In this document: in pieces, positions 324 through 41,598 of the stretch
Numbering within the stretch: the first letter of the stretch is position 1
Layout of the letters: each line of letters opens with the position of its first letter
From: Desulfomonile tiedjei
GTDB taxonomy: Bacteria; Desulfobacterota; Desulfomonilia; Desulfomonilales; Desulfomonilaceae
Direction of reading: 5' to 3'
DNA length: 42,451 nucleotides
NCBI GenBank assembly: GCA_016218715.1
Contig: JACRDG010000075.1
Coordinates: forward strand, 1-42,451
Translations under genes and position numbers: made by a program
Notes under the pieces: generated by a model
Told to the model about the DNA's origin: nothing
The model's input: only the letters and a program-made list of their open reading frames with translations
Databases searched by the model: none

Positions 324-1280
324 CTAGGTTACAGTCCTCCCGGACGATTTGACGTGCTTCCTGAACCAGTCGTAGGCGAGTTGAAGTCCCTGATTCAACT
401 CGGTCTTGTGCACCCATCCTAACTTGTGAATCCTGGACACATCGAGGAGCTTCCGATACATGCCATCCGGCTTGCTGGAATCAAATGTGACGTCCCCTTG
501 AAAACCGGTCACGTCGCCGACCATTCCCGCTATTTCCCTGACGCTGAAATCCTTTCCGGTGCCTACATTGATAGGCGCCGACTCATCATAGGAATGCATC
601 AGGAACAGGCAGGCATCGGCCAAGTCGTCCACATAGATGACTTCCCGCAGAGGCTTTCCTGTGCCCCACAGTTCGACCTGTTTGTCCTTGTTGGCAACCG
701 CGTGGTCGAACTTGGCGATCAATGCCGCGACCAGATGCGAGTTCATGGAGTCATAATTGTCATTCGGTCCATACACGTTGGCCGGGATGGCCGAGATGAA
801 ATTGGCCCCATACTGCCGGTTGTACGATTCACACATTTTCATCCCGGCTATTTTGGCAACGGCATAGGGCTCATTGGTCGGCTCCAGCAGCCCTGTGAGC
901 AGGTACTCCTCCTTCAAAGGTTGGACGCTCTCTTTGGGATACACACAGTTACTCGCCAAGAACAGCAGCTTCTTGGCGCCATACTTCCACGCGAAATGAA
1001 TCAGGTTATTTTGTATCTGGAGATTCTTATATAGAAATTCAGCTCGGTAGGTGTTGTTGGCGTGAATGCCCCCCACCTTGGCCGCGGCGGCAAAGATGTA
1101 TTCGGGCCTCTCCTTCTCAAAAAACCTCTCCACTGCGCCCTGGTTCTCAAGATCAAGCTCTGCATGGCTGCGGACAACGAGATGATCATATCCTCCGGCC
1201 TTCAACTTCCTCGTGATGACGGAGCCGACGAGGCCTGTGTGTCCTGCCACATAAACCTTTGACGATCTCGGCATTACCAT
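324..1280 (-). CDS. fcl: GDP-L-fucose synthase family protein (Fcl/WcaG, ColC-like)
   Basis: A 318-residue SDR enzyme. The family performs C3/C5 epimerisation and NADPH reduction of GDP-4-keto-6-deoxymannose to GDP-L-fucose. The close relative ColC acts on the 3-deoxy analogue to give GDP-colitose. The Rossmann motif GHTGLVGS is at about 13-20. The catalytic set is complete: Ser110, Cys112, Tyr139, Lys143 and His182, each offset by exactly 3 from E. coli Ser107, Cys109, Tyr136, Lys140 and His179. NVYGPNDNYD is also typical. The start could be ATG 1280 or ATG 1274; the upstream stop ends one base before 1280. No gmd (GDP-mannose 4,6-dehydratase) is visible in the window. The nearby ColD-like dehydratase at 4237-6195 makes a colitose-type product worth considering. 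The fold and residues are certain; the exact sugar is not. Confidence 0.93.
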   Translation of the reverse strand: MVMPRSSKVYVAGHTGLVGSVITRKLKAGGYDHLVVRSHAELDLENQGAVERFFEKERPEYIFAAAAKVGGIHANNTYRAEFLYKNLQIQNNLIHFAWKYGAKKLLFLASNCVYPKESVQPLKEEYLLTGLLEPTNEPYAVAKIAGMKMCESYNRQYGANFISAIPANVYGPNDNYDSMNSHLVAALIAKFDHAVANKDKQVELWGTGKPLREVIYVDDLADACLFLMHSYDESAPINVGTGKDFSVREIAGMVGDVTGFQGDVTFDSSKPDGMYRKLLDVSRIHKLGWVHKTELNQGLQLAYDWFRKHVKSSGRTVT

Positions 1281-1281
1281 T

Positions 1282-2337
1282 TCAAAATTCCAAGGCGCCC
1301 TGGCTTATCAGGTCCCTATTCCAGGCGATGGTTCTCTCGAGTCCCTCTTTCAGCCCGACAAACCGGTTGATCTGGAACTCCTCGGTCACCCGGCTGATGT
1401 CGAGCTTCACCATGTCGGGGGCGCTTCTCGATGAATGCGCGCCGTGCTCAGGTATGCTGTATCGGGAGTCCGTCATTTCCCCGATCATTCTGGCCAGATC
1501 GAGGATGGACACCGTCTCATTGCCGCCTATGTTGTACACAAAATGTTTACCCCGCAGCAGGATGTTCAACAGCATGGCCACGCAATCGGAGATATACAGC
1601 CATGTCCTCTCCTGCTGCCCGTTATCAACAAGGTCTATATGCTTCCTGCCAAGCGCCTTGCCAAGGAACTCACCCAACACCCTCTTATCACGGATGGTGA
1701 TTCCGGGTCCGTAGGTTGCCGATATCCTGGCTATCCGGACTTCCACGCCCTCATCCCTGAAAACCGAGCATATGGTCTCGCCCAGTCTTTTGGATTCTGC
1801 ATACACAGACCTGGGCTGCGTGGTCTGGCAATTTCCGCTGTAGGTTTCAGGAGTGGGGATGACCTGCGCCTGCCCGTAGACCTCCGACGAGCTGATGAAG
1901 AGCATGACGGCCTTGTTCGCTTGGCATAACTGAAGAAGCTTTTCGGTGAGGACGGTATTCAGGACGATGGTCTCCAGCTTGTGTTCCAGGAATTTTGCAG
2001 GCGGCGAATAGGTCGCCGCGTGCACGACGTAATCCACTTGGCCATCGAACGTGAATGACTCGCCCAAGTTCTCCTGGAGAAACCGGAACCCGCTGACGCG
2101 CGTCGCGATTTCCTGAATGGCGCAATTGGGCGGGCTCTTGCTTATCCCGGTTATTTTCAGATTCAGGTGGTGTTTTGTACTGGCGGCGGACAACGCACTG
2201 ATCATGTACGTGCCGATGAAGCCATTGGCGCCCGTAACCAGTATCGATGCGTCCTTGATTGCGCCCCAGTCGATCCTGGACAGAATGCTTTGTATGTCCT
2301 GCTCTATGATCTGATGCATCAATCGGTCTTCACTCAT
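1282..2337 (-). CDS. NAD-dependent epimerase/dehydratase (extended SDR)
   Basis: A 351-residue extended SDR. It has a nucleotide-binding GANGFIG motif at about 36-42, an SSSEVYG segment carrying the catalytic serine near 150, and YxxxK at Tyr179/Lys183. NIGGNETVSILDLA in the C-terminal part is typical of nucleotide-sugar epimerases and UDP-glucuronate decarboxylase-like enzymes. The ATG at 2337 is chosen because it overlaps the upstream transketolase-like gene by 8 bases; the frame stays open upstream, but that extension has no SDR character. A further ATG at 2319 is possible. It sits between the TPP enzyme pair and Fcl, so it probably reduces or epimerises an intermediate of the same sugar pathway. 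That substrate assignment is inference. Confidence 0.88.
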   Translation of the reverse strand: MSEDRLMHQIIEQDIQSILSRIDWGAIKDASILVTGANGFIGTYMISALSAASTKHHLNLKITGISKSPPNCAIQEIATRVSGFRFLQENLGESFTFDGQVDYVVHAATYSPPAKFLEHKLETIVLNTVLTEKLLQLCQANKAVMLFISSSEVYGQAQVIPTPETYSGNCQTTQPRSVYAESKRLGETICSVFRDEGVEVRIARISATYGPGITIRDKRVLGEFLGKALGRKHIDLVDNGQQERTWLYISDCVAMLLNILLRGKHFVYNIGGNETVSILDLARMIGEMTDSRYSIPEHGAHSSRSAPDMVKLDISRVTEEFQINRFVGLKEGLERTIAWNRDLISQGALEF

Positions 2338-2875
2338 TGAAACGATCGCCCAGTTCCACAAGCAGGGTGGATTTTCCGTCCTCCCTTTCAAGGGCTTTCT
2401 GGTACGCGGGCAAGATCTGTGCGGGGTCTTCGAGCTTGATAACCTCGACATTCTCGAGGAGCATCTTGAAGGCCTCTGTAAAATCGCCGCAGTGCTGGAT
2501 CCCCGGATGCAGAGGGCGCGTGCTCCCGACCATGGTCTTGATGATGACCTTCGGCTTCACCTGTCCCTTCGTCAGAACGTGAATCTTGTCCAAATGATTC
2601 ACCAACTGATTGACCGCGAGCAGGAGGAAATTAAATCGGGGGAAGACAGACACGGGGATGTACCCTTGCAGGGCCAGGCCGATGGATATGCCCATTTGGG
2701 TGTCCTCAAAAACCGGGAGTTCGATTTTCTTGGCAGGAGCGAGATGCGCCAGGGTCCCGTAAATGACATTCCCCGGATAGGCCACGCTCTGCCCGAGAAA
2801 CACCGTTTTCTCGTGGCTGGCAAGGTAATCGATTCCCCGCCTGATTTCAGATGCGTAAGTTAAAACTGGACCCAT
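2330..2875 (-). CDS. Thiamine-diphosphate enzyme, E1-beta/transketolase Pyr-domain subunit
   Basis: A 181-residue protein resembling the pyrimidine-binding (Pyr) domain of the E1-beta subunit of 2-oxoacid dehydrogenases and of transketolase. Recognisable stretches include VFLGQSVAYPGN near the start, FEDTQMGISIGLALQGYIPV and FNFLLLAVNQLVNHLDKI. Full E1-beta proteins are about 325 residues. This one lacks the C-terminal transketolase domain that usually contacts the E2 core, so a role in a classical dehydrogenase complex is unlikely. It overlaps the alpha subunit gene by 16 bases (2860-2875), which suggests coupled translation and a heteromeric enzyme. In a sugar cluster such an enzyme could transfer a two-carbon unit to a keto-sugar, as YerE does in yersiniose synthesis. 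YerE is of a different TPP subfamily, so this is only a functional analogy. Confidence 0.85.
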   Translation of the reverse strand: MGPVLTYASEIRRGIDYLASHEKTVFLGQSVAYPGNVIYGTLAHLAPAKKIELPVFEDTQMGISIGLALQGYIPVSVFPRFNFLLLAVNQLVNHLDKIHVLTKGQVKPKVIIKTMVGSTRPLHPGIQHCGDFTEAFKMLLENVEVIKLEDPAQILPAYQKALEREDGKSTLLVELGDRFNE

Positions 2876-3483
2876 TTCCCGGCACCGACATGAGGATATT
2901 TGTTTTTTATGTACGCGTATCTGTATAGTTTCGGAGCCACCTGTTCGATCGGGCTGTTGGTCGGGTCCTGCTCCTTTTCACCCCATACGGTTCGGGTGGG
3001 GGTTCCGACGCTTTTTCCATTGTCTTCTATGACGAAATGGATCGGGAGGTCGTGGTTCTGGGAATACTTGAGGCTCTCATGAAAGCCGCCCGTCTCAGCA
3101 GTCATTTCGCCGACGAACACCCAGACCTTATCTGATGCGCCCTTCATCTGCAGGCCCATGGCCACGCCGACTGCGATGGGACATATGCCTCCGACCAGCG
3201 CGGATGAAAAGAACCGCCGTTCCGGATGGTTTATCGTGATACTGTTTCCCGCTAATATTTCCGCTTTAAGCCATTCTTTGCTGATGCCGTGAAGCAACGC
3301 ATGATAATGACTTCTCCAGGTCGAGAACACCCAATCATCCCGTCTTACGTTTTTGAATATTTCCATGAGCTGATCTTCGTTGCCGTCCGACAAATGGATC
3401 GGCGCCCGTATGCGTCCATCGCAATACAGTGCCGCGATCTCATCTTCAAAATCGGTCAAATCTTTTTTGCTAATCTGCGTCAT
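2860..3483 (-). CDS. Thiamine-diphosphate enzyme, E1-alpha-like PP-domain subunit
   Basis: About 207 residues from ATG 3483; GTG 3492 would add three residues, and neither has a strong ribosome binding site. The protein matches the diphosphate-binding domain of E1-alpha subunits. The TPP/Mg2+ motif is present in variant form: Gly125-Glu126-Met127, then ETGGFHESL, ending at Asp154-Asn155. It is shorter than ordinary E1-alpha (about 320-370 residues), like its beta partner. The two genes overlap, so they almost certainly form one enzyme. Divergent short E1 pairs of this type occur in polysaccharide loci. The reaction is probably carboligation or acyl transfer rather than a dehydrogenase step, because no E2 or E3 gene is present. 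The gene is divergent from the plus-strand glycosyltransferase. Confidence 0.86.
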   Translation of the reverse strand: MTQISKKDLTDFEDEIAALYCDGRIRAPIHLSDGNEDQLMEIFKNVRRDDWVFSTWRSHYHALLHGISKEWLKAEILAGNSITINHPERRFFSSALVGGICPIAVGVAMGLQMKGASDKVWVFVGEMTAETGGFHESLKYSQNHDLPIHFVIEDNGKSVGTPTRTVWGEKEQDPTNSPIEQVAPKLYRYAYIKNKYPHVGAGKWVQF

Positions 3484-3533
3484 CTCAAACACAATTGGGC
3501 ATCAATGCCTTGGCAAACGGGCGGAAGGACTCT
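3484..3533. promoter_or_regulatory. Short divergent intergenic region, presumed promoter site
   Basis: Only 50 bases separate the starts of the minus-strand E1-alpha gene and the plus-strand glycosyltransferase. It is the only divergent gene pair in the window, so at least one promoter for the plus-strand gene should lie here or inside the E1-alpha reading frame. I could not pick out a convincing -35/-10 pair. A purine-rich GGAAGGA at 3523-3529 precedes the ATG at 3534 and is the likely ribosome binding site. The promoter role is inferred from gene orientation. Confidence 0.35.
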
Positions 3534-4208
3534 ATGAAAGCCTTGAAAACCACCCTACTGATTCCCACGCTCAACGAGGTTGATAGTATGAAAATCATCA
3601 TGCCCAGGGTGCAAAGCAACTGGGTGGATGAAATACTCGTGGTGGACGGCGGTTCGGACGACGGCACCGTGGAATATGCCAGGCAGAACGGCTACCACGT
3701 GGTCAGCCCGCAAGTCCGGGGGCTGGTCCCTCAGCTCGATGAGGCCTTCAAGCTGGCCCAAGGGGACATCATCGTCCTTTTCAGTCCTGACGGGAATTCA
3801 ATTCCCGAGCTCATTCCCAAAGTGATCGATAAAATCCATGAGGGCTACGACATGGTCATCGTTTCACGCTATGCGGATGGAGCGAAGAGCTATGACGACG
3901 ATTGTCTGACGGCCATCGGGAATTTTGTGTTCACGCGAATGGTGAATTTGCGCTTCGGAACAACGTATACGGATGTGCTCGTCATCTTCAGGGCCTTCCG
4001 GAAAGACATCTTGAACACCATCACGATAGACCCGGATGAGGACATCGACCTTCAGCTTTCCATCAAGTGCGGGAAAACCAAGCTGAAGGTCGCCGAGATC
4101 CCGGGAGATGAACCCAAAAGGGTTGCCGGCGTGAGAAAAATGAAAATCATGAAGACCGGCTGGGAGCTGCTGCGGACGCTGTACAAGGAATCCTTCTCAA
4201 AGCGCTAA
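3534..4208 (+). CDS. Family 2 glycosyltransferase (DPM1-like), the only plus-strand gene
   Basis: A 224-residue GT-A protein. The ATG at 3534 is chosen over the in-frame TTG at 3495 because GGAAGGA lies just upstream and the conserved start of the fold, LLIPTLNE, follows at once. Nucleotide-binding VVDGGSDDGT is present. The usual metal-binding DxD region reads FSPDGNS. SRYADGA and the later IGNFVFT and FRAFRKD segments resemble dolichyl-phosphate-mannose-synthase-like GT2 proteins. It has no membrane segment. The same pattern (SR-F/Y, IGN-x-VFT, FRA) recurs in the C-terminal domain of the neighbouring fused protein at 4237-6195, so the two are paralogous. It ends 28 bases from the convergent end of that gene. 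Base composition is lower in G+C than most of the cluster (26/60 at 3541-3600). The sugar donor is unknown. Confidence 0.9.
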   Translation: MKALKTTLLIPTLNEVDSMKIIMPRVQSNWVDEILVVDGGSDDGTVEYARQNGYHVVSPQVRGLVPQLDEAFKLAQGDIIVLFSPDGNSIPELIPKVIDKIHEGYDMVIVSRYADGAKSYDDDCLTAIGNFVFTRMVNLRFGTTYTDVLVIFRAFRKDILNTITIDPDEDIDLQLSIKCGKTKLKVAEIPGDEPKRVAGVRKMKIMKTGWELLRTLYKESFSKR

Positions 4209-4236: not shown

Positions 4237-6195
4237 TCATCTGTGAAGGGAGTTGCGGGTGGAGCCGTCCGCTCCCTTTCCATAGCTTGCCCACTCCTTG
4301 ATCAGTGCCATCAAGACAGGGAAGGCGCTGAGGACAATCTCTTTGCGATCGTTTAGCTCGGGATTGACGATCTCGACGGTGGGCAGCTCCGCGACTTTCC
4401 AACCAAGTTTCAACGCCTGAATCGACAGCTGATATTGCGCGGCATGGCCCCGCCCCGCCACCTTCACCTCGCTCAATCGCTTGCGCTTGATCGCCCGAAA
4501 GGAGCTGACGGCATCGCTCAAATTGCCATAAAAAGCCACGTTCGCCAGCAAGGTGAAGACGCGGTTGCCGATGCTCCGAAAGTGAATGCCCTGGGCACGG
4601 TCGTGGCGTGCGCCCCCGGGAAGAAACCGAGACGCGGTGACCATATCGCTTCCCCGCTCCAGTGCCAGCAGCAGCCGGCCTATGTCTCGAGGATTATGTC
4701 TCCCGTCGGCACGAAAAAATACAAGGTTTTCACATTCTATTGGTATGGCACCATCCAGAACGAGATGGAACGCTTCCTTGCCGTTGGCCGGGTAAGTCTC
4801 GATGCCCCGCTCCTTCAGATAGGCAAGGGCTTCCGGTGTCCCTCCCGTATCGACGGCAAGGATCTTTTCGAACAGATCAGAGGGCACTTCGTCGAGTGTA
4901 TGCTCCAACGTCGAACAGTCCTGGCCAAGGGTGAGGATGAGCTCCGCACCATCCCGGGATTGCAGGGGCCGGCGCCGGAAGTACCCCTCAAATAGCTCGG
5001 CCATATAGTCGAGGTCGGCCTCCATCAAGTCTTGATGGCAGCCGATGTAAAATCCGTTGTGATTGATCCATTTCGCGACAGGATAGTCGTCTTCCTGCCA
5101 GCCGAGCAGGCGATGATAGACCGGCTGGTTGGTCAGGGGCAGCATGTCGCGGGTCTCCACGCTGTTGGCTTCCAGGAAGTTTACCAGCTCGTCCTTCTTC
5201 TCCCCCCGCAATACGATGGGATACATCATGAAGGCATGCTCGCTGCTGGGGCGCACGCTGGGAAGCTGGAGGTATGGATCGAGAAATCTCAGTTTGCGCG
5301 TCAACGATCCCGCGTTTGACTGTCTGGCGGCCAAAACGGACGGATACTCCTCGAGCTGAGCCAGGCCAAGAGCCCCCTCAAGCTCAGTGACCCTGAAGCT
5401 ATGCCCCACGCTGACGAACTTGAACCGGCGGGCAATAATCGTTCGCATCTCGTCCGATGACTTGGAGTCGTCATCGTCGATGCTGATGTAGATCGAATCG
5501 CGCCCATGGTTCATCAGGGAGCGCAGACGCAGCGCATATTCGGGATCCTTCGTGGTATTCAAGCCACCCACACCCGTGACCAACAGGTGCGCGATATAGG
5601 TGGAAAAGCAAGCAATGTCGCCGAAGCTTCCGACCGGCTGCCCTTCATAGCGTGCGAACATCGTTTCGCAACTGTCTTCAATGATCTTTAAATTGTGCCG
5701 TCTGGCGATTGCCAGGATCGGAGCCATGTCGGCGGGCTGTCCGAACAGGTGCACCGGAATAATGCACCGCGTGCGAGGCGTGATCTTTGCCTCCAACTTC
5801 TCAGGGTCGAGCTGATAATGGACAGGCTCCACATCGACGAGGACCGGCACCATCCGGTTGTGCAGCACGACGTTCGCGGTGGCCACGAACGTGACCGTGG
5901 GCACGATGACCTCGTCTCCGTCCTGCCATCCATGCAATTCCTTCATCGCCTGTAGGGCGATGTGCAACGCGCTCGTGCCGCTGTTGCTCATTACACCGAA
6001 CCGGCAGCCATGCAGCCTGGCAAAATCGCGCTCGAATTGCTGCACCATGGGACCATAGGAGAGGCGATTGTTGTTGAGCGCCTCCATGACCAATTCCTTT
6101 GCCCGCGGGCTGACATTCAAGGTGCCCACGCCCAGCATCGGCCGGCCCGGCAAGTCGAGCATTCGACTACGCAACCTGATCGAGGTGCTTCTCAT
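4237..6195 (-). CDS. Fused DegT-fold sugar 3-dehydratase-like domain plus degenerate GT2 domain
   Basis: A 652-residue two-domain protein. Residues about 20-408 are DegT/DnrJ/EryC1 fold: NSGTSALHIAL at 71-81, the PLP-pyridine Asp174 in IIEDSC, and FSTYIAHLLVTGVGG at 197-211. The Schiff-base lysine position is His203. Its distance from Asp174 (29) equals that from Asp493 to His522 in the RfbH domain at 10978-13188. Lysine-to-histidine replacement marks PLP sugar 3-dehydratases (RfbH/E1, ColD) and rules out normal transamination. No CxC iron-sulfur motif is present, so ColD is the better model. Residues about 415-640 resemble GT2/DPM1 enzymes, but the nucleotide motif reads VDTGGTPEA and the DxD region reads FRADGR, so catalysis by that half is doubtful. 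The first ATG (6195) is used; ATG 6162 or 6138 are alternatives. It lies near the TPP pair and Fcl. Confidence 0.88.
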   Translation of the reverse strand: MRSTSIRLRSRMLDLPGRPMLGVGTLNVSPRAKELVMEALNNNRLSYGPMVQQFERDFARLHGCRFGVMSNSGTSALHIALQAMKELHGWQDGDEVIVPTVTFVATANVVLHNRMVPVLVDVEPVHYQLDPEKLEAKITPRTRCIIPVHLFGQPADMAPILAIARRHNLKIIEDSCETMFARYEGQPVGSFGDIACFSTYIAHLLVTGVGGLNTTKDPEYALRLRSLMNHGRDSIYISIDDDDSKSSDEMRTIIARRFKFVSVGHSFRVTELEGALGLAQLEEYPSVLAARQSNAGSLTRKLRFLDPYLQLPSVRPSSEHAFMMYPIVLRGEKKDELVNFLEANSVETRDMLPLTNQPVYHRLLGWQEDDYPVAKWINHNGFYIGCHQDLMEADLDYMAELFEGYFRRRPLQSRDGAELILTLGQDCSTLEHTLDEVPSDLFEKILAVDTGGTPEALAYLKERGIETYPANGKEAFHLVLDGAIPIECENLVFFRADGRHNPRDIGRLLLALERGSDMVTASRFLPGGARHDRAQGIHFRSIGNRVFTLLANVAFYGNLSDAVSSFRAIKRKRLSEVKVAGRGHAAQYQLSIQALKLGWKVAELPTVEIVNPELNDRKEIVLSAFPVLMALIKEWASYGKGADGSTRNSLHR

Positions 6196-6244: not shown

Positions 6245-8719
6245 TCAAGAGTACCCCCACGTTTGGGGATAGGTCGCGCTTGCGTTCGGAATGCATGATT
6301 TTTTGATCAACGCCAGGCATAACGCCGCCAAGAGCACCGCTCCAACGATGCAGGACATCCTCAGCAGAGCGTAATACGCGGCAGGTCGAAAAATGTATTC
6401 CACGGTGTGATGTCCGGCTCCGATCTGCACGCCCCGCAAGGTCGTGAACGTGCGGAGTACGGGTTTCGGCTCACCGTCGACCAATACGGTCCACCCGGGG
6501 TAAAAGTGATCAGCCACGTTTAAAATGCCGCCCGCGCTGTCGACTTCCACGGTCACCCGGTCAGCACCCACTATCGTTTTTGTACGTTCGGAATGCGCAT
6601 GCACCGAATCGACCTCCGGCCGATCCCGGCAGACGTCGGCGACCGCGGCGTCGGTCATCACCAGCGGAGCGAAAGACTTCAGATCTTCGAGCGGCGTATG
6701 GCGAATAAATCGTAATGCCTCCTCGTCGCTCCCGAAGCACCGGGCGCTACGCGACACAAATGCGCGGCTCAACTGGCTGCGGTCGTGAACAAGATGGAGC
6801 ACCATACCGCTGGGATTCAGACGGGCTGTCGCGTCATAACCGGCAATCTTCTTGTCCTCCGGCGTCAATATGATGCCGACGTTCAGCAGCGGCAGCAACT
6901 CGAGCTTGAGCGCGGGGTTGTCATCCACGATCAACTCCGTCAGATAGGGGGCCCGATCCCGGCCATTGATCGCGACGTTCACCAACCGCTGGAAACGAAA
7001 GGGAATCAGCGGAGCATACCCTGCAATGGTCGGTATCCGGGCAAGGGCGAGAGGCGCAAGCCCTTGATAGGACCACCCGCTGGGGGACAACGGCTCCAAC
7101 GAAATGGCACGTCCATACGTCTCAGCGAGCATCTTGGTCCGCAGGAGTTCCTCGGATACTCGATACCGTTCGGCATATGACATGATGGGGCGGGCGGCCA
7201 CGCTCACCTTCGGCGTCGAGATATTGGTCTTGTACGCATGGATGCTGGTGTCAAGGCTGACGGTCACGATCATCAGCCCGAACAAAAGATGCATGGAGCC
7301 CGTACGGTCGGCTCCAAAGACCTTCGCGTAAAAACGCCATAATAACAGCAGGGTGGCCACTCCATACACAAAGAAAAGGCCGCAAAGGACATAGTTCTGG
7401 GGCGCCACGAAAGAAGGTATACGATCCAATTTTCCGACGACGTGCGCAAGGTGCCCCAGCGTCAATACCCCCACACCCACGTATGCGACCAGTCCAAAGA
7501 CGCGGCGTCTTGCGTCGGGTTCCGACCGGACGCGACTTGCCATACCGCGGTCGAACATCCAGGCGGTCAGCACCATCACTCCGACCGGCATCAGATAAAA
7601 AAATCGGCCGACCGCAAACCCGCTGAGAACCGGAATGGCCATTTTGATGTTCGCATAGTCAAAAGCGCCGCTATACGCAACAAGGCCGATCCCTGCAATC
7701 CCCCCTGCAAAGGCCAACCGACGGCGAATCCGCGGCGACTCCTGTTTCCAGGTCAATTTCATGACGACGAACAGGATGAGCCCCAGCTTCGCTGGCAGTG
7801 ATAGCCCGAACACATTGTGATTCGTCATTATTTGGCGCAACGCTTCGGATGCGTTCGCGCCTATGAACTCCGAGGAGGAATTCGCGAAATGCTGCGGCCC
7901 TGTTTCGGTGATTTTGTAGCGGGGAGAGAGCGTCGCGATCTGGAACATTTGCCACAGAAAGGGGGAATAGAGAAGCACTCCCAGCGAGGCCGCCGCACAA
8001 TTCCAGAGTGAAGCCCTAGACAAGCCGAATGAGGCGAGAATGTAGGCCAAGAGGGTGATCAGGACAAAAGGCAGCGTTGCCACGGAGGTATTGATCGCAA
8101 AGGCAAAACACAGAAACGAGAAACCAACGATGCGGACCAGACGATCAGCCCAATGAAGGCAAGCCGAGGCTTCAATGGCATGAGTCATATAGAGCAATAG
8201 AGGCAGCCATGCTGCGGCCATTGGAAAGTCGGCTGAGCCGTGCCAAAAGGCCATCCAGTACGTGGTAGCCGCAAACATGACGGAGGACAGCGTGGCGCTC
8301 TCCACGGAAATCTCCATGATCCGCCTCAGATACAGGTACATCCCGATCACCGAGACTGCGTAGAGCGCAAGGCTGCCCACCAGATCAATAGCGAGCGGGG
8401 CAAGCGCGAAGATCCGGCCGAAGAGGATGTCAATGGCCAAAGGAGTAGTATGCATACTTCCCGCCCAAACGTAACCAGACAAAATATCATCTCGCCAGAG
8501 AGGGCCCAGTACGGAATCGCCCTGCGCACAGGCGAACAAGTACTTATTGGTCAGAAAATAGTCAAAGCGATCCTCCCAGAGCTGGTAAGAGTCTGAGCCG
8601 AACAAGACGATGAAAATAAAAAGAATGAACGGCGCCCCTGCCCCCATCAGTGCATAGTACATGGCAGGCGTGTTCGACGTCGTTCCGTCGAGACGCAGTT
8701 CTCCGCTGATGCCGTTCAT
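6245..8719 (-). CDS. YfhO-family polytopic membrane protein (GT-C type)
   Basis: An 824-residue integral membrane protein. It has many hydrophobic helices from about residue 25 to 470, then a large extracytoplasmic domain and a final helix near 790-810. The C-terminal ADHFYPGWTVLVDGEPKPV followed by GAGHHTVEYIFRP is the hallmark of YfhO-like proteins. Members are predicted GT-C glycosyltransferases that use lipid-linked sugars at the outer face; Bacillus YfhO modifies lipoteichoic acid. The start is set at ATG 8719, which forms an ATGA overlap with the upstream methyltransferase stop. The frame is open further up, but that extension has no membrane character. A second YfhO protein lies at 26661-29198. 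It could transfer a branch sugar or act in polymerisation; this is inference. Confidence 0.88.
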   Translation of the reverse strand: MNGISGELRLDGTTSNTPAMYYALMGAGAPFILFIFIVLFGSDSYQLWEDRFDYFLTNKYLFACAQGDSVLGPLWRDDILSGYVWAGSMHTTPLAIDILFGRIFALAPLAIDLVGSLALYAVSVIGMYLYLRRIMEISVESATLSSVMFAATTYWMAFWHGSADFPMAAAWLPLLLYMTHAIEASACLHWADRLVRIVGFSFLCFAFAINTSVATLPFVLITLLAYILASFGLSRASLWNCAAASLGVLLYSPFLWQMFQIATLSPRYKITETGPQHFANSSSEFIGANASEALRQIMTNHNVFGLSLPAKLGLILFVVMKLTWKQESPRIRRRLAFAGGIAGIGLVAYSGAFDYANIKMAIPVLSGFAVGRFFYLMPVGVMVLTAWMFDRGMASRVRSEPDARRRVFGLVAYVGVGVLTLGHLAHVVGKLDRIPSFVAPQNYVLCGLFFVYGVATLLLLWRFYAKVFGADRTGSMHLLFGLMIVTVSLDTSIHAYKTNISTPKVSVAARPIMSYAERYRVSEELLRTKMLAETYGRAISLEPLSPSGWSYQGLAPLALARIPTIAGYAPLIPFRFQRLVNVAINGRDRAPYLTELIVDDNPALKLELLPLLNVGIILTPEDKKIAGYDATARLNPSGMVLHLVHDRSQLSRAFVSRSARCFGSDEEALRFIRHTPLEDLKSFAPLVMTDAAVADVCRDRPEVDSVHAHSERTKTIVGADRVTVEVDSAGGILNVADHFYPGWTVLVDGEPKPVLRTFTTLRGVQIGAGHHTVEYIFRPAAYYALLRMSCIVGAVLLAALCLALIKKSCIPNASATYPQTWGYS

Positions 8720-9837
8720 CGGGCCGGGGCTTTCTCCTCCGCTGAGTTGGCCGCACAGCCCTGGCGCACGCCGCATCCCCGCCATCCGTAATAGCCGGTG
8801 GGCGACGTTTGGATTTCGCCCAAGCCCGCCATCTCCAGCGCCTCCCGCACCTGCGCCTCGGAATAATAAAAGCGGACCGGCGCGGCGAGCCGATCGAACC
8901 AGTCGGCATGGAGGACTTGAAAGGGATAGCGGCTGTACATTTTGATGCGGGGCGGAGCCAGTTTTTCAGCGATACCGCCGACCCCGGGAATGCGCCGGAC
9001 GGCTCGATAGGGCAGGACAAAGAAGACCTGGTCCACGAGGGCCCCCGCGAAGGACATGCCGTTGACGATCGAATAGGGCAACCGCGTCGTCAGGTGCCGG
9101 ACCGCCTCGAGAAAGAAGTTGGTGATTCGGCGGGTGCTGCTGTACAGCCAGACGAACATGGATCCGTTTGGCTTCACCAACCCGGCCAACGCGTTGATGC
9201 CCCGTCCAGGATCCGGCAGGTGATGCAGCACCCCGATGCTGTAGACGAAATCAAACGTGCCGGGCTCAAAGGGCAGCGCATAAATGTTGGCCTGCACCAG
9301 ATGGACGTTCGGGAACTGACGCGTATTCTTATGGGTGGCGTCGATCGCCCGGCTCAAGTCCACCCCCACCATCTCGGCGCCGCAAGCGGCGGCATGGTAG
9401 ATGTGGCGCCCGAATCCGCAACCGGCGTCCAGCCCGAGCCGCCCCTTGAATGTCTCGGGAGTGGCGGGATGCAGATAGTTCCAGAAATTGTCCCTGAAAT
9501 CGCAGACCATCTCGGAGAACGTCGTCCATTGATAGCCGAAACTCCGCTGCGTCCTGACGACGGACGACTCGAACCAGCCCCTTGCCTTCCCTGAGGCCGG
9601 CGGACGGCGATTCGCCGGGAGGCGCTCCCGGTACCGCTCCGCGAAATCCGGAAACAACTCGTAGGCATTCTCCAGCACCCGGGGAATCGTATTGGCGATG
9701 GGATAACTGGCGCCGCATCCGCAGACCAGCACGCCCTCGACAATCTCCTCTCCGCCGGATGACCGCTCAAACGCCGTCGCCTCGAGTGTTCCCCGACACT
9801 GAGGACAGCGGAGCAGTTGCAACAAAAACTGACGCAT
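8716..9837 (-). CDS. Class I SAM-dependent methyltransferase with N-terminal Trm112-like zinc domain
   Basis: 373 residues. The N-terminus carries CPQC (Cys11, Cys14) and CGC (Cys39, Cys41), a Trm112p-like zinc-binding module. It is followed by a Rossmann methyltransferase domain with motif I LGLDAGCGFG, acidic end VGVDLS, and FVYSIGVLHHLPDPG. These zinc-fronted methyltransferases are common in polysaccharide loci, where they probably methylate a sugar or lipid-linked intermediate. The ATG at 9837 is preceded by GAGGT at a good distance. The gene is coupled to the YfhO gene by a 4-base overlap. The methyl acceptor cannot be told from sequence. Confidence 0.9.
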   Translation of the reverse strand: MRQFLLQLLRCPQCRGTLEATAFERSSGGEEIVEGVLVCGCGASYPIANTIPRVLENAYELFPDFAERYRERLPANRRPPASGKARGWFESSVVRTQRSFGYQWTTFSEMVCDFRDNFWNYLHPATPETFKGRLGLDAGCGFGRHIYHAAACGAEMVGVDLSRAIDATHKNTRQFPNVHLVQANIYALPFEPGTFDFVYSIGVLHHLPDPGRGINALAGLVKPNGSMFVWLYSSTRRITNFFLEAVRHLTTRLPYSIVNGMSFAGALVDQVFFVLPYRAVRRIPGVGGIAEKLAPPRIKMYSRYPFQVLHADWFDRLAAPVRFYYSEAQVREALEMAGLGEIQTSPTGYYGWRGCGVRQGCAANSAEEKAPAR

Positions 9838-10977: not shown

Positions 10978-13188
10978 CTACGATCGCGCGAAGAACTCTT
11001 CGACGCGCTTGATGACGAACTCCAGCATCTCGTTGGTCAGGCCCGGATACACTCCGATGAAAAACGTGTCGCGCATGATGCGGTCGGTATGCTCGAGCGT
11101 CCCGTAGACGCGGTGCGGGATATCGCGGTAACCCGGCTGCTTGAGGATATTCCCCCCGAACACCTGACGGGTCTCGATGTTCGCGCTTTCGAGCCACTGC
11201 ACCAGGTTCTGCCGGGACACGCCGTCCCGGACCGTGATCGTGAAACCGAACCAGGATGGATTCGCCCGCGGATCGAGCGTGGGCAGAATGAGCCGGTCCT
11301 GAAAGGGCTCCAGTCCTTTGTACAATCGCTGAAAATTGCGCCGCCGCTTCTCGATGAAATCGGACAGCCGGTCGAGTTGCGCAACGCCGACGGCGGCCTG
11401 CATGTCCGTCGGTTTGAAATTGTATCCGAGAGTGGAATAGACGTATTTATGGTCGTAGCCTTGGGGCAGATCGCCCAGTTGCCAGCCGAAGCGTTTGCCG
11501 CACGTGTTGGTTTCGCCCGGCGCGCACCAGCAGTCCCTTCCCCAATCCCGCACCGCCCGGACGACCCGGGCCAGTCCGGCGTCGTTGACGACAACGCCGC
11601 CCCCTTCACCCATGGTCATCTGGTGGGCGGGGAAAAAACTCACCGTCGCCAGATCGCCGAACGTGCCGACCGATTTGCCTTTGAAGGTCGCCCCAAGCGC
11701 GTCACAGGAGTCTTCGACGAGATAGAGCCGGTGCCGCTTGGCCAGATCACAGATGACATCCATGTCGCAGGGGACGCCGAGCGTATGGGGGATCATGATG
11801 GCCCGTGTCCGCGGCGAGATGGCCCCTTCCAGCAACCGGGGGTTGATGTTGTAGGTCCCCACCTCGCAATCCACGAAGACAGGGATCAAGCCCCCGTGGA
11901 TCAGGGGAGCCAGGGTGGTGGGAAACGTGACCGCCGGCGTGAGAACCTCGTCGCCGGGACGCAACGGATTCTCGAGCAGGTTGGAGGTCAGGGTCAGCAC
12001 GGCCGTGAGATTGGCGGTCGAACCGGAATTGACGACCACAAAATCTCGCGCGCCGAGATACTTTTTCATCTTGTACTCGAACAACTCGCCGTAGGGGCCC
12101 AGGGTCAGCCAGAAATCCAGCGCGCTGTCGACCAGGTTCACCATCTCCGCGTCGCCGAAGACGCGACCCGCATACTGCACGCGCGTCTTGAACGGAACGA
12201 ACGGTTGGGGGTTGTGCGCGACCTGGTAATACTGCCGGACCTTCTCGAGGATCTCCTGCTTGAGCTGATCGGCCTCCGAGGCGGTCGCCTTCGGCGCATG
12301 GGTGATGTGCGTATCGGCCCGCCATTGGCGGCGGAACCGCTTCAGCGACTCGCTCAAATCGAGGGGCTCCGTCCCCAGGAGCGACGCGAGCTTGTCCGTT
12401 CTGAGTCCACCCTGCAGGGGACGTTGCGCCCGCTGGCCCAGTTCGGCCGTCGAGACGGGGACGATCAGATTCGGATCAAGCCCCAGCGCGCGGGCCAGGG
12501 ACTTTCCAAGATCGGAGCGGGACAGCAGGTCTTTGCCGACGACGTTGACCACCCCCTGGGTCCCCATTTGAACCAAGCGGAAACTGACCTCGGCCAGATA
12601 ATCGGCCAGCGTCGGCGTCGTCTGTTGATCGTGCGGGACGCGCATGGACTGTCCCGATCCCAGCCGTTCCCAGACCTGCATCGCGAAATTGGGCGAGGTC
12701 CGATCCCATCCGTAGACGGTCGTGGTCCGCAGGATCAGCGCTTTGGCCCCCGACGCGCGTACGGCTTGTTCCCCTTCCCATTTCATGCGTCCGTAGACAT
12801 TGAGCGGACAGGGCGCATCATCTTCCGCGTAAGGTCCGCGCGTGCCGTCGAAAATGTAGTCGGACGAGTAATACACGACGTGCGCGCCGCACCGGCCCGC
12901 GGCCTCGGCGACGTGCCGAGTCCCCTGCACCTGCACGGCGGAGGTCTCATCAGGATGCGCCTCGCAATAGTCGACCCCGCCCGGCGGGATGATGGCCAGA
13001 AACACCGTGTCGGGTTTCGTCTCGCTCATCACGCGGTCCACGGCGCCGCCGTCGCGCACGTCGAGGAACAGGCCTCCGGGCACCGTCCTCGAACGATAAG
13101 TGGGAACGACCGACACGGAATTCCGCTCGAGCGCCCGCACGAGCGCCCCTCCGACGAGCCCGGAGGCTCCGATCACCAATGCTTTCAC
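10978..13188 (-). CDS. rfbH: Fused RmlD-like reductase plus RfbH-type CDP-4-keto-6-deoxyglucose 3-dehydratase
   Basis: A 736-residue bifunctional protein. Residues 1 to about 290 are an RmlD-type SDR: GASGLVGGAL at 7-16, Ser108/Ser109 in YYSSDYIFDG, and Tyr132/Lys136 in YGRMK. Residues about 303-736 match the whole of RfbH/E1 (about 437 residues): NSGSTANLTAV, PLP Asp493, and PAHQMTMGEGG with His522 in place of the PLP lysine. Cys495, Cys553, Cys555 and Cys563 follow the exact C-X57-C-X-C-X7-C spacing of the E1 [2Fe-2S] site. The dehydratase makes the 3,4-glucoseen intermediate, and the reductase half could reduce C4 of the final 4-keto-3,6-dideoxysugar. The start is GTG 13188 with AGGTG upstream. 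It follows rfbF, rfbG and a cupin epimerase. The separate Fe-S flavoprotein reductase E3 (AscD/DdhD) is not in the window. Stand-alone RfbH is the norm, so this fusion is unusual. Confidence 0.94.
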   Translation of the reverse strand: MKALVIGASGLVGGALVRALERNSVSVVPTYRSRTVPGGLFLDVRDGGAVDRVMSETKPDTVFLAIIPPGGVDYCEAHPDETSAVQVQGTRHVAEAAGRCGAHVVYYSSDYIFDGTRGPYAEDDAPCPLNVYGRMKWEGEQAVRASGAKALILRTTTVYGWDRTSPNFAMQVWERLGSGQSMRVPHDQQTTPTLADYLAEVSFRLVQMGTQGVVNVVGKDLLSRSDLGKSLARALGLDPNLIVPVSTAELGQRAQRPLQGGLRTDKLASLLGTEPLDLSESLKRFRRQWRADTHITHAPKATASEADQLKQEILEKVRQYYQVAHNPQPFVPFKTRVQYAGRVFGDAEMVNLVDSALDFWLTLGPYGELFEYKMKKYLGARDFVVVNSGSTANLTAVLTLTSNLLENPLRPGDEVLTPAVTFPTTLAPLIHGGLIPVFVDCEVGTYNINPRLLEGAISPRTRAIMIPHTLGVPCDMDVICDLAKRHRLYLVEDSCDALGATFKGKSVGTFGDLATVSFFPAHQMTMGEGGGVVVNDAGLARVVRAVRDWGRDCWCAPGETNTCGKRFGWQLGDLPQGYDHKYVYSTLGYNFKPTDMQAAVGVAQLDRLSDFIEKRRRNFQRLYKGLEPFQDRLILPTLDPRANPSWFGFTITVRDGVSRQNLVQWLESANIETRQVFGGNILKQPGYRDIPHRVYGTLEHTDRIMRDTFFIGVYPGLTNEMLEFVIKRVEEFFARS

Positions 13189-13196
13189 TTGTTCAC

Positions 13197-13646
13197 CTAC
13201 CGGTGCTTCAACGTCCAGTCGTATGGAATGGAGGACGTGGCGACGTCGATCCTGGTCATCTCGGCGGGATCATGGGGGATACTGGCGCAATTCGCGACGA
13301 TCGCGGTTTGTCCACCCACGGCCGTGAATCCGTTCACCACTCCGGGCGGCACCCGGACGAGCTGATAATTGATCTGTCCGAACACGATCTCCTGGATGGC
13401 GCCGTGAGTTTTGGAACCGGCGCGCTGATCGTACAGGACCAGCTTGATGTTGCCGTCCACGACCGCGTAGTTGAGGGTCATGCGGCTGTGCAGATGCCAC
13501 GCCTTGACCACCCCCGGATAGATGAGGGAGAAGTAGATTTCCCCGAATCCCTGGAAGTGGGGATCGTTGGCGCGCAGCATGTGCATCACCACGCCCCGAT
13601 CGTCCTGAATGCGCTTCAACGGGAAGATCTCGACACCCTGGATCAT
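13197..13646 (-). CDS. Cupin sugar epimerase, RmlC/AscE-like (probable CDP-keto-dideoxyhexose 5-epimerase)
   Basis: 149 residues of the dTDP-4-dehydrorhamnose 3,5-epimerase superfamily: DDRGVVMHMLRAND near the start, YPGVVKAWHLHSRM with His51 and His53, GNIKLVLYDQR, and VPPGVVNGFTAVGG. It is shorter than RmlC (about 180 residues). RmlC relatives include AscE, which epimerises C5 of CDP-4-keto-3,6-dideoxyglucose on the way to CDP-ascarylose. Its place between rfbG and the reductase-RfbH fusion fits that role well. The ATG at 13646 makes an ATGA overlap with the rfbG stop. It could instead be a 3,5-epimerase for another sugar. The family call is firm; the substrate is inferred from neighbours. 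Confidence 0.85.
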   Translation of the reverse strand: MIQGVEIFPLKRIQDDRGVVMHMLRANDPHFQGFGEIYFSLIYPGVVKAWHLHSRMTLNYAVVDGNIKLVLYDQRAGSKTHGAIQEIVFGQINYQLVRVPPGVVNGFTAVGGQTAIVANCASIPHDPAEMTRIDVATSSIPYDWTLKHR

Positions 13647-14638
13647 CGGCTTCGCCCGCCCTTCTGGGAAAAGAATTCCCGATAGCCTGCAATCGTCTCC
13701 TGAAGACCCTGCTCCAGCGTGTACTGCGGCTTCCAGCCCAGGTCTCGCCTCGCTTTGTCGGCGCTCAGATACTGATCTGGAATCTCGTTCGTCGCCGTAT
13801 TGAGAATGACCGGCTTCAGATCCTCTCGCCCCATGAGCCGACCGATCAGCGTCGTCATCTCCAGCACCGTGACCGGCGATTCGTTGCTGAAATTATAGGC
13901 CTCCCCGTGCCCCTTCCCCGCCAGAACCTTTTCGGCCAGCAGGGCATAGGCCATGACCGCATCCTTGATGTAGACGTAGTCCCGTTTCATGGTCCCGTCG
14001 CTGCGGATGACCGGCGATTGCCCGTCGAGCACGGAACGGATCGTCCCGGGAACGAGGCGCTCAAAGTTGAGATCGCCCGGGCCGTAGAAATTCCCGCAAC
14101 GCGTGACGGCGACGGGAACCCCGTACGTGTGCCAATACGTGTGCGCCAGCAGATCCCCGCAACTCTTGGACACATCGTAGGGATGGCAGCCCGCCAACGG
14201 CGCATCCTCATGGTAGGGAAGCTCCGCCTGAATCCCGTAGGCCTTGTCGCTGGAGGCCACGACAACCGCCTTGACTCTTCCGGAACGCCGGGCCGCTTCC
14301 AGAATATTCCAGGTTCCCTGGATGTTGGCGGAAAACGTCGAAAGGGGATTGTCGTTGGCGATGCCCACCTGGGTCTGTGCGGCCAGATGATAGACGGTCT
14401 CGATCCGGTATTCATTGAGGGTCCGCTCGATCAGCGCGTAATCTTCCAGCGTTCCGTGCACGGCCATGATCTGCTTGTCCAGACCCAGTCGGTAGAAATA
14501 TGACTTGGGAATGCCGTCCCTGACCAGGCCGACGACATCGGCCTGGCGCTGGACCAGCCACTCGGTCAGCCACGCCCCCAACAGACCGGTGCATCCCGTC
14601 ACCAGGACTCGTCGGTTCTTCCACCCGTCGAATTCCAT
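13643..14638 (-). CDS. rfbG: CDP-glucose 4,6-dehydratase
   Basis: 331 residues from ATG 14638, which has AGGGGA just upstream and follows the rfbF stop by 8 bases. An SDR with nucleotide motif GCTGLLGAWL at about 15-24, HLAAQTQVGIAN, the SSDKAYG segment (Ser130, Asp131, Lys132) and YDVSK (Tyr154, Lys158). CGNFYGPGDLNFERLVPG is characteristic of RfbG. It converts CDP-glucose to CDP-4-keto-6-deoxyglucose with bound NAD+, the committed step to CDP-3,6-dideoxyhexoses. Product and substrate enzymes flank it (RfbF upstream, epimerase and RfbH downstream), which makes the assignment secure. Confidence 0.95.
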   Translation of the reverse strand: MEFDGWKNRRVLVTGCTGLLGAWLTEWLVQRQADVVGLVRDGIPKSYFYRLGLDKQIMAVHGTLEDYALIERTLNEYRIETVYHLAAQTQVGIANDNPLSTFSANIQGTWNILEAARRSGRVKAVVVASSDKAYGIQAELPYHEDAPLAGCHPYDVSKSCGDLLAHTYWHTYGVPVAVTRCGNFYGPGDLNFERLVPGTIRSVLDGQSPVIRSDGTMKRDYVYIKDAVMAYALLAEKVLAGKGHGEAYNFSNESPVTVLEMTTLIGRLMGREDLKPVILNTATNEIPDQYLSADKARRDLGWKPQYTLEQGLQETIAGYREFFSQKGGRSR

Positions 14639-14646
14639 ATCATCCC

Positions 14647-15441
14647 CTACTTCCAGATCTTCCATGGAGCACGACCGCCGTTCCAAAGTTCTTCCAGGAG
14701 CTTCAACTCCCGGTACGTATCAATCGGCTGCCAGAAGCCTTCATGCAGATAGACCATCAACTGGCCGTCTCTTGCCAGGCGCTGGAGCGGCTCCTGTTCC
14801 AGGATCAGATTGTCTTTCTGGTCCAGGTACCGTTCGAGAAACTCCCGCTGAAAGACGAAGAACCCGCCGTTGATGACCCCTTCCGTGACCTGGGGCTTCT
14901 CGTTAAATTCCGCCGCGCACCCGTCCGCCTCCACACGGAGCTCGCCGAACCGCCCCGGAGGACGGACCCCGGTGATCGTGCCGATCTTTCCGTGCCTGCG
15001 ATGAAAGTTCACGAGTTCCCCGATGTTGACATCGCCCAGGCCGTCGCCATAGGTCAGACAAAATGTCTCGGCTTGGACGTAGTGGGCGACGCGCGCCACC
15101 CGTCCGCCGGTCTGAGTCGAAAGACCGGTCTCCACCAACGTCACCCGCCAATCGTCTTCCGTATGATTGTTGTGGTACTGGACGGCGTCCGGCATACCCA
15201 GCCGCACCGTCATGTCGGCGCCATAGGTCTTGTAGTTCAGGAAATAGTCCTTGATGACATGCCCTTTATAGCCAAGACACAGCACAAAGTCTGTCAGGCC
15301 GTGTTCGGCGTAGAGTTTCATGATATGCCAGAGGATCGGCCGCTCTCCGATTTCCACCATGGGTTTTGGCCGGAATTCGGTCTCCTCGCGGAGACGCGTG
15401 CCAAGTCCGCCGCACAAAATCACGACGGGGAACTTCTCCAT
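14647..15441 (-). CDS. rfbF: Glucose-1-phosphate cytidylyltransferase
   Basis: 264 residues from ATG 15441, close to the 257 of Salmonella RfbF. The signature CGGLGTRLREE leads into the FRPKPMVEIG segment with Lys26, followed by PILWHIMKLY. LTYGDGLGDVNI, GRFGEL, NEKP, GGFFVF and the C-terminal FWQPIDTYREL are all RfbF features. The enzyme joins glucose-1-phosphate and CTP to give CDP-glucose, the first step of the module that continues through rfbG, the epimerase and rfbH. A 114-base gap separates it from the upstream GT4 gene, unlike the tight spacing elsewhere, so a promoter or processing site may precede it. Confidence 0.96.
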   Translation of the reverse strand: MEKFPVVILCGGLGTRLREETEFRPKPMVEIGERPILWHIMKLYAEHGLTDFVLCLGYKGHVIKDYFLNYKTYGADMTVRLGMPDAVQYHNNHTEDDWRVTLVETGLSTQTGGRVARVAHYVQAETFCLTYGDGLGDVNIGELVNFHRRHGKIGTITGVRPPGRFGELRVEADGCAAEFNEKPQVTEGVINGGFFVFQREFLERYLDQKDNLILEQEPLQRLARDGQLMVYLHEGFWQPIDTYRELKLLEELWNGGRAPWKIWK

Positions 15442-15515
15442 GCCCTGCCCCTCACCGGCCCCGCCCCCGCGTTGCTGATTCCTCAGACGAGCCACTGCGC
15501 CTCCTTCACGGTTCC

Positions 15516-15546
15516 CGCTCCGTCCGTTCCGTGACGCCTCGGAGCG
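15516..15546. repeat. Inverted repeat in the gap before rfbF
   Basis: CGCTCCG at 15516-15522 is the exact reverse complement of CGGAGCG at 15540-15546, with a 17-base loop. A second, competing pair (CACGG at 15507-15511 and CCGTG at 15529-15533) overlaps it. Both lie in the 114-base gap between the end of the GT4 gene and rfbF. No T-run follows on the minus strand, so this is not a standard intrinsic terminator. It may be a transcript-processing or attenuating structure, or chance in G+C-rich sequence. Confidence 0.3.
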
Positions 15547-15555
15547 ATCCATGGA

Positions 15556-31160: not shown

Positions 31161-31206
31161 TGTTTCGCCCCTCCCGGTTGCAAAGTAAGGGGATACGGTC
31201 CAAAGT

Positions 31207-35121: not shown

Positions 35122-35155
35122 CGCACTGGCTCCTGAAGTTGTGGAGGGACTCTCG

Positions 35156-41489: not shown

Positions 41490-41494
41490 TGTAT

Positions 41495-41501
41495 CCTCCT
41501 C
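41495..41501 (-). promoter_or_regulatory. Strong ribosome binding site for the S74 gene
   Basis: GAGGAGG on the minus strand, 5 bases before ATG 41489. It places the start there and not at ATG 41522, whose extra 11 residues would precede the signal segment. Confidence 0.8.
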
Positions 41502-41598
41502 GGACAGCAGGGCCACGCGCACAGGAATATTCGATCTTCCCTGGAAGGTTTCATCTGACTTGAATCGCGAATGCTGGTGCTAATGTGGATATGCACCC

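Follow-up and report, generated by a model that had tools for sequence, protein, structure and literature searches.

The subject of this report is an intact open reading frame (ORF) of 652 amino acids, which runs from ATG to stop on the minus strand at 4237..6195 of the window, that is, of the whole 42,451-nucleotide stretch of Desulfomonile tiedjei contig JACRDG010000075.1 (GCA_016218715.1) that was analysed. An earlier, sequence-only reading of this DNA described the product as a DegT-fold enzyme in which the lysine that binds pyridoxal 5'-phosphate (PLP) is replaced by histidine, fused to a family 2 glycosyltransferase (GT2) domain; the reading frame it named is borne out, although it left out the strand. 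The N-terminal part of the protein (residues 18-410; 4966..6144, minus strand) is a His-type domain of the DegT/aspartate-aminotransferase fold, identified by Pfam PF01041 (DegT_DnrJ_EryC1; 310 bits over residues 33-400) and by the AlphaFold model and VIA Z scores described below. The remainder (residues 411-652; 4240..4965, minus strand) is a degenerate GT2-like domain with a GT-A fold resembling that of dolichyl-phosphate mannose synthase (DPMS). The 652-residue protein belongs to a widespread, uncharacterised enzyme group, a His-type DegT family that I call DegT-H (the window member plus 80 loci, which carry L-numbers). I was unable to find a prior description of this clade or of its glycosyltransferase fusion in the open-access PMC literature.

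A histidine in place of the Schiff-base lysine

His203 (codon 5587..5589, minus strand, checked) stands at the position of the Schiff-base lysine, 29 residues past Asp174 (5674..5676, minus strand), the aspartate of the PLP ring. Relatives were gathered with six search patterns, including MKELHGWQ (residues 84-91), EDSCETMF (173-180), SSEHAFMM (317-324) and KWINHNGF (375-382), which matched 99 stretches; 89 of these encode a relative and 80 loci were kept, giving 81 rows with the window. The hosts include Omnitrophota, Planctomycetota, Chloroflexota, Gemmatimonadota, many groups of the candidate phyla radiation, the DPANN archaea Woesearchaeota and Nanoarchaeota, and others. Column 203 is His, and column 174 is Asp, in 81/81 rows. 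Because residue 203 lies outside all six patterns, the conservation of His203 is not built in by the search; that of K85, D174, C176, E177, H320 and M323 partly is, since these residues lie inside patterns. S72, G73, T74, D174, E177 and H203 are identical in all rows that have a letter there (80 or 81 rows from many phyla), as are H230, R232, R268, H320, E347 and R349.

The exchange of lysine for histidine rests on the 310-bit match to PF01041, the uniform histidine column and a phmmer alignment in which the PLP lysine of the GDP-perosamine synthases 3dr7 and 3bn1 falls opposite His203 (3dr4 is a K186A mutant). These three entries are the best solved-structure sequence matches of the 652-residue protein (36-39% identity). 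The sequence-only reading had named a different lysine at the Schiff-base position as the observation that would speak against it, and no lysine column is invariant in the DegT-H alignment. The sole lysine column conserved in at least 70% of rows is Lys85 (75/80), which was dropped as an alternative Schiff-base lysine since it is not invariant and sits in a helix, 11 residues past the phosphate-binding turn Ser72-Gly73-Thr74. The 29-residue spacing was reported correctly and equals that of the window's RfbH domain and of ColD (D159/H188), but it fails as a sign of a His-type enzyme: the Lys-type perosamine synthase also has 29 residues from Asp to Lys (counted by eye in the alignment), so the spacing is a property of DegT proteins.

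The D. tiedjei genome holds nine long DegT matches, seven with Lys and two with His, the latter being the 652-residue protein and RfbH. Among 99 genomes of relatives, five match at 1e-60, and besides the organism's own genome these comprise one His form from a sister clade (L017, discussed below) and three Lys forms, which shows that the DegT-H protein is sporadic among the relatives' genomes. The 652-residue protein reaches no cut-off among the 25 NCBIfam models listed, the best scores being PseC (220 bits, cut-off 423.5) and RfbH (NF011936; 218.4 bits, cut-off 423).

Absence of the iron-sulfur cluster motif

RfbH (E1, CDP-4-keto-6-deoxyglucose 3-dehydrase; PDB 3bcx) shares with DegT-H the histidine, the EDxC motif and a Tyr three residues ahead of the His (8/9 RfbH rows; Phe in the RfbH domain of the window). 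It differs in its iron-sulfur cluster, of which all four cysteines are present in 9/9 RfbH rows, whereas the columns of the second to fourth are Cys-free in 81/81 DegT-H rows. The absence of a CxC motif, as claimed earlier, is therefore confirmed; CxC occurs elsewhere in the row, away from the cluster place, in 4/81. In the 652-residue protein the place of the RfbH CxC is taken by the Cys-free loop NHGRDSIYISIDD (residues 229-241; 5473..5511, minus strand). The first cluster cysteine is present in all 81 rows as ED-S-C-E, partly built in by a search pattern; it is Cys176 of EDSCETMF (codon 5668..5670, minus strand), which also aligns with one cysteine of ColD. Assignment of the protein to RfbH was dropped, given the absence of the cluster cysteines at three places and the missed NF011936 cut-off.

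ColD of Escherichia coli O55:H7 has ED-N-C-E and no CxC at the cluster loop, and since both proteins have EDxCE and lack CxC there, the DegT-H site is ColD-like in make-up. ColD (PDB 2gms/3b8x) further shares the DegT fold, the Lys-to-His exchange 29 residues past the PLP Asp, the DxCE motif and an adjoining Fcl-family gene, as found within 5 kb in 31/80 DegT-H loci. It differs in having MEGG after the His and S-H, where DegT-H has GVGG and A-H, in belonging to a separate clade, and in lacking the GT-A-like C-terminal domain that is fused in 11/81 DegT-H rows. By BLASTP the protein shares 27% identity with ColD and 31% with the window's RfbH domain. The view that the protein resembles ColD rather than RfbH thus stands for cluster-free chemistry, as the best guess, but not for kinship, and assignment to ColD was dropped because DegT-H does not fall in the ColD clade. 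The further claim that the gene cluster holds two different His-type enzymes is upheld: the second is the E1-type 3-dehydratase of a 736-residue RmlD-RfbH fusion (10978..13188, minus strand), which scores 639 bits against NF011936 (cut-off 423) and keeps the four cluster cysteines.

Phylogeny and predicted structure

Trees were built from 95 rows and then from 70 rows, the latter including seven additional RfbH rows, one further ColD-type row and fifteen additional Lys forms; for the latter, DegT-H was thinned from 81 to 33 rows, and the 23 extra rows came from 37 loci, the rows of the other loci being too short. DegT-H forms one clade in both trees, with a support of 100/99, and a single branch (99/90) parts all His forms from all sampled Lys forms (45 and 25 rows). 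ColD groups with RfbH (100/98) and DegT-H stands apart. The phylogeny proposed as a check therefore places the His forms together but puts DegT-H outside ColD and apart from the joint group of RfbH and ColD. DegT-H is accordingly a third His-type clade apart from RfbH/E1 and ColD, though the exact branching is provisional because ColD is represented by two rows only.

A sister clade with another His-type DegT occurs in 6/297 genomes of the phylum (L147-L152; also L017) and branches beside DegT-H (92/83, one row in the tree). All six members carry CxCx2Cx8C at the RfbH CxC loop and lack the EDxC cysteine. What would be a 3-dehydratase-like enzyme may thus have a site for a metal or an iron-sulfur cluster with a different, new layout.

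An AlphaFold2 model made with 37 family sequences has a mean pLDDT (predicted local confidence) of 89.1 over the whole 652-residue protein. The VIA Z scores of the DegT domain model are 48.0 to GDP-perosamine synthase, 47.6 to E1 and 45.8 to ColD, where differences below 1 are ties; the ColD overlay (3b8x, Z 45.8) has a root-mean-square deviation of 2.3 over 370 aligned residues. The overlay suggested earlier thus matches the folds of E1 and ColD, but the top match is the Lys-type perosamine synthase and not ColD. GDP-perosamine synthase of Caulobacter crescentus (3bn1/3dr4/3dr7), the closest relative in both solved structure and sequence, has the same predicted substrate, GDP-4-keto-6-deoxymannose, but it retains the lysine that forms the Schiff base, and its product is a 4-amino sugar. 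From models such as these, the fold by itself cannot separate a dehydratase from an aminotransferase.

The fused GT-A-like domain and its stand-alone counterpart

The model of residues 411-652 (pLDDT 82) is a GT-A fold, the nearest structures being DPMS, ArnC and glucosyl-3-phosphoglycerate synthase (Foldseek 5mlz, E 5.7e-10). The fused domain reported earlier is thus real, but it is degenerate: unlike the GT2 enzymes DPMS, ArnC and GtrB (5mlz, 9asc, 5ekp), whose fold it shares, it has lost the nucleotide-binding motif, and the window copy misses the Pfam cut-off (PF00535, 20.9 bits, cut-off 23.3; residues 491-575, profile positions 82-165). Five other fused proteins were scanned, of which L033 passes (26.2), L024 lies at the cut-off (23.3) and L027 just under it (22.9), while L021 and L022 gave no PF00535 match up to E 1. 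The motif SxD[GR][TS] is absent from all 11 fused domains (window, L021-L028, L033 and L038) and present in 14/14 stand-alone GT2 relatives of a first set and 17/19 of a second, the two exceptions being L063 (STDNT) and L089 (SKDNT). The stretch retained in the fused domains is SRF..GG......S.GNR.F......N..D....R..K. Long N-terminal open frames in L046, L071, L088, L092 and L036 have no Pfam domain there and were not counted as fusions.

Next to the 652-residue gene, and convergent with it, lies a stand-alone DPMS-like GT2 (3534..4208, plus strand, ATG at 3534) that matches PF00535 with 61.9 bits over positions 2-166 and carries GGSDDGT. A stand-alone GT2 is found within 5 kb in 8/8 fused loci besides the window, L025 and L038 having been excluded since each lies on a contig that stops no more than about 0.5 kb from the gene. 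The corresponding counts for unfused loci are 11/70 (Fisher p 3e-6) and, for those flanked by 4 kb or more in both directions, 9/41 (p 5e-5), an association that is inflated by the shared ancestry of the fused set. Since the motif is lost in 11/11 fused domains and a motif-bearing GT2 lies nearby, docking is likelier than catalysis. To judge by these sequences, the fused domain is more likely a docking or pairing part than a second enzyme, and the stand-alone GT2 is its likely partner.

Just upstream lies a gene for an 846-residue membrane protein (6245..8785, minus strand) with ten hydrophobic segments by a simple hydropathy count and a weak YfhO/GT-C-like C-terminus (PF09586, 16.8 bits, under the cut-off). 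YfhO proteins above the threshold directly adjoin the DegT-H gene in L024 and L050. YfhO is paired with a CsbB-type GT2 in lipoteichoic-acid glycosylation, and by analogy the YfhO-like neighbours would fit a lipid-phosphate sugar route. That glycosylation is treated in parts of PMC8035078 and PMC7389260.

Gene neighbourhoods

Neighbours were listed simply for 72/80 loci (without L023, L038, L049, L055, L065, L081, L088 and L098), and Gmd and Fcl were counted within 5 kb at all 80 with hidden Markov models built here and self-chosen score floors; locus ORFs were read from stop to stop, so a distance of 0 may include non-coding extension. The 72 loci, which also supplied the set of adjacent Fcl genes, have 29 adjacent genes for short-chain dehydrogenases/reductases (SDRs), and 22 of the 26 scanned are Gmd, with E up to 1e-90 (L035:11179-12081, L058:11154-12071 and L061:11040-11921 were left out). 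Within 5 kb, Gmd occurs in 31/80 loci, an Fcl/ColC homologue in 31/80, either in 49/80 and both in 13/80. As read from the table, 24 Gmd genes lie at most 200 bp from the DegT-H gene, one of them in the same ORF: L072 is a single 734-residue frame in which a complete Gmd (530.7 bits, cut-off 415) precedes the DegT-H domain. Because its source is a metagenome-assembled genome, this fusion could be the product of a mistake in assembly or sequencing. In two archaeal loci (L067:9959-12356 and L082:9938-12362), a Lys-type DegT gene lies directly ahead of the DegT-H gene.

In the window the Fcl/ColC-type partner is a GDP-L-fucose/colitose-synthase homologue at 324..1280 (minus strand; NF047922, 443 bits, cut-off 500). 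An alignment of 25 rows (23 neighbours, the window gene and ColC) has Tyr139 and Lys143 invariant and Cys112 and His182 conserved in at least 90%. In E. coli O55, colD lies beside colC, the same arrangement as DegT-H with its Fcl-family gene. The sequence-only reading left the substrate as GDP- or CDP-linked, and the neighbours, through the adjacent Gmd genes and the L072 fusion, favour GDP over CDP. On this sequence evidence they most likely point to GDP-mannose chemistry.

Between the Fcl homologue and the stand-alone GT2 lie three further genes on the minus strand. One encodes an extended SDR of the NDP-sugar epimerase/reductase type (1282..2451; PF01370, 132 bits), a homologue of which stands beside a thiamine pyrophosphate (TPP) pair in L100. 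The others form such a pair, a compact subunit like the alpha chain of pyruvate dehydrogenase (PDH) E1 (2860..3492, 210 residues; PF00676, 57.3 bits) and a compact PDH-E1-beta/transketolase-pyrimidine-like subunit without a C-terminal domain (2330..2875, 181 residues; PF02779, 29.1 bits, cut-off 27). Besides the window, full-length E1-alpha/beta pairs occur near DegT-H in 2/80 loci (L087 and L100), and PDH-like pairs near sister-clade members in three of the six contexts read (L155, L156 and L158 of L153-L158). The window pair has GEM where L087 and L100 carry the GDG of the TPP motif. As a general DegT-H partner the pair was dropped, and because of its rarity I place it outside the core function of DegT-H. 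In parts of PMC10338323 and PMC4753412, PDH-like pairs are named as the proposed source of the C4 acetyl branch in eurekanate and paulomycose, and YerE is given as the enzyme that adds the C4 branch of yersiniose. The heterodimers AviB1/AviB2 and EvdU5/EvdS3, for which C4-acetyl branching is proposed in the portions of that literature consulted, are likewise E1-alpha/beta-like pairs in nucleotide-sugar clusters, but the window subunits are compact and the beta-like one has no transketolase C domain. By analogy with the branching proposed for such pairs, the pair beside the 652-residue gene hints at a C4-branched 3,6-dideoxy sugar, and a GDP-linked one is possible in the window cluster.

Proposed function and its alternatives

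Three characterised enzymes serve as guides. In the part of PMC8987622 that deals with them, the lysine is replaced by His in E1, ColD and SpnQ alike, the His acting as catalytic base and acid; ColD, which lacks the cluster, frees its product by hydrolysis, together with ammonia; and neither ColD nor E1 transaminates under conditions where SpnQ does. An extract of PMC10440746 describes ColD homologues of Campylobacter that share 62-67% identity with the enzymes from E. coli and Yersinia and convert GDP-4-keto-6-deoxy-heptose to a 3,6-dideoxy product with PLP and glutamate. By analogy, the best explanation is that the DegT domain is probably a ColD-like GDP-4-keto-6-deoxymannose 3-dehydratase dependent on pyridoxamine 5'-phosphate (PMP), one that would remove an oxygen from a sugar destined for the cell surface, and that the decayed GT-A domain serves for docking. 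As the sequence-only reading warned, "aminotransferase" is a poor label, one that RefSeq also gives to the ColD gene of E. coli O55.

In the proposed reaction, a Schiff base would join PMP to a 4-keto-6-deoxy sugar, which is most likely the GDP-4-keto-6-deoxymannose made by Gmd. His203, at the lysine position, would act as base and acid and drive out the C3 hydroxyl. With no iron-sulfur cluster, the enamine would be hydrolysed to a 4-keto-3,6-dideoxy sugar and ammonia, and glutamate would regenerate PMP. The Fcl/ColC homologue would probably then epimerise C5 and reduce C4, giving a colitose-type product; alternatively, the TPP pair might first add a two-carbon branch at C4. The decayed GT-A domain would no longer bind a sugar nucleotide by the usual motif; its probable role would be docking of the dehydratase, either at the membrane or on the neighbouring GT2.

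Several observations weigh against this proposal. The separate branching of DegT-H, the Lys-type aminotransferase as nearest solved relative and the inflated GT2 association were given above, and in the AlphaFold2 model the segments that flank His203 (200-202 and 204-208) have pLDDT below 50, which makes this a low-confidence loop. Neither Gmd nor Fcl lies within 5 kb in 31/80 loci, in some because the flanks are short. The individually scored Fcl-like neighbours all fall under the Fcl cut-off of 500 (window 443, L033 435, L026 427, L047 303, L054 269 and L024 188), as does ColC itself (304), and one more Fcl-like gene, scoring 462 bits, is present in D. tiedjei. The window's contig has no gmd over the cut-off; the single gmd that the genome contains (587 bits) lies on a different contig, where the 19 kb read around it hold no Fcl-like gene. 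Since the window's contig ends 323 bases past the Fcl gene, it may lack a linked gene.

What other roles could the protein have? The window encodes homologues of RfbF and RfbG (13643-15552), and such homologues also come after DegT-H and Fcl in L042, L045 and L047; because RfbF, RfbG and RfbH in the cluster also supply CDP-4-keto sugars, DegT-H might be a 3-dehydratase for a CDP- or dTDP-linked 4-keto-6-deoxy sugar. This is distinctly unlikely, as the cluster already holds an E1-type RfbH for CDP sugars, and Gmd is the commonest adjacent SDR scanned and is fused to DegT-H in L072. Those same Gmd neighbours would also suit perosamine synthesis, and together with the closeness of the GDP-perosamine synthases they lend something to the idea of a persisting aminotransferase in which His203 or another residue stands in for the lysine. 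Perosamine synthesis, however, is not known to involve partners of the Fcl/ColC type. DegT-H has no invariant Lys, and the His marks three characterised 3-dehydratases, of which, according to PMC8987622, ColD and E1 did not transaminate where SpnQ did, so I consider an aminotransferase very unlikely.

The role of the C-terminal domain allows another alternative, a truly bifunctional fusion in which the newly formed dideoxy sugar would be transferred by the GT2-like domain. The GT-A fold is retained, 8/10 aligned fused copies still have one Asp of the DXD region and L033 passes the Pfam cut-off, and in addition Chloroflexi L078 and L090 carry a full N-terminal GT2, a different arrangement. Loss of the N-terminal nucleotide-binding motif from every fused copy, its presence in 14/14 stand-alone relatives and the stand-alone GT2 near all eight fused loci with untruncated flanks make a second activity unlikely. 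That both domains deviate from their family consensus could even indicate a catalytically dead paralogue, but I give this hardly any credence, since twelve positions from S72 to R349 are invariant across phyla (D174, E177 and H320 within search patterns).

Building on the proposed GDP-sugar 3-dehydratase, a wider reading, which is speculative and rather doubtful, would join these threads. A third, cluster-free clade spread across candidate-phyla bacteria and DPANN archaea would yield GDP-4-keto-3,6-dideoxymannose for a ColC-type reductase or, with a TPP heterodimer (window, L087 and L100; sister-clade L155, L156 and L158), for two-carbon branching at C4, which would be the GDP-linked equivalent of how yersiniose is made. 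In some members, the dead DPMS-like domain would dock the dehydratase on a live lipid-phosphate glycosyltransferase and so channel the unstable dideoxy sugar to a lipid-linked donor for a YfhO-like GT-C enzyme. Colitose is among the 55 sugars treated in PMC7725333, an extract of which gives it as absent from TACK archaea.

If the proposed dehydratase function is correct, 3-deoxygenation of GDP sugars would not be confined to the ColD set of Gram-negative pathogens but would also occur in a separate, scattered clade, and automatic naming as "aminotransferase" would cause dideoxy sugars to be mistaken for amino sugars when the polysaccharide clusters of uncultured bacteria and archaea are read. 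Because the closest solved relative is a Lys enzyme with the same predicted substrate, DegT-H offers a natural test of the effect of a Lys-to-His exchange on DegT chemistry. The decayed glycosyltransferase domain beside a motif-bearing copy would likewise be a testable case of a pseudo-glycosyltransferase as a docking part.

Other features of the window

Further along, 34096-38292 holds a nonulosonic-acid-like module with unusual fusions: of its two NeuB-type synthases one bears a cytidylyltransferase domain, and a second cytidylyltransferase-like domain is joined to a GT2. Related VGIGTT repeats occur in the two proteins encoded at 40686-41522 and 30550-31203, the second resembling a shortened copy. 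The first ends in SDARLKKNI... and resembles a tail-spike/S74-type self-cleaving chaperone.

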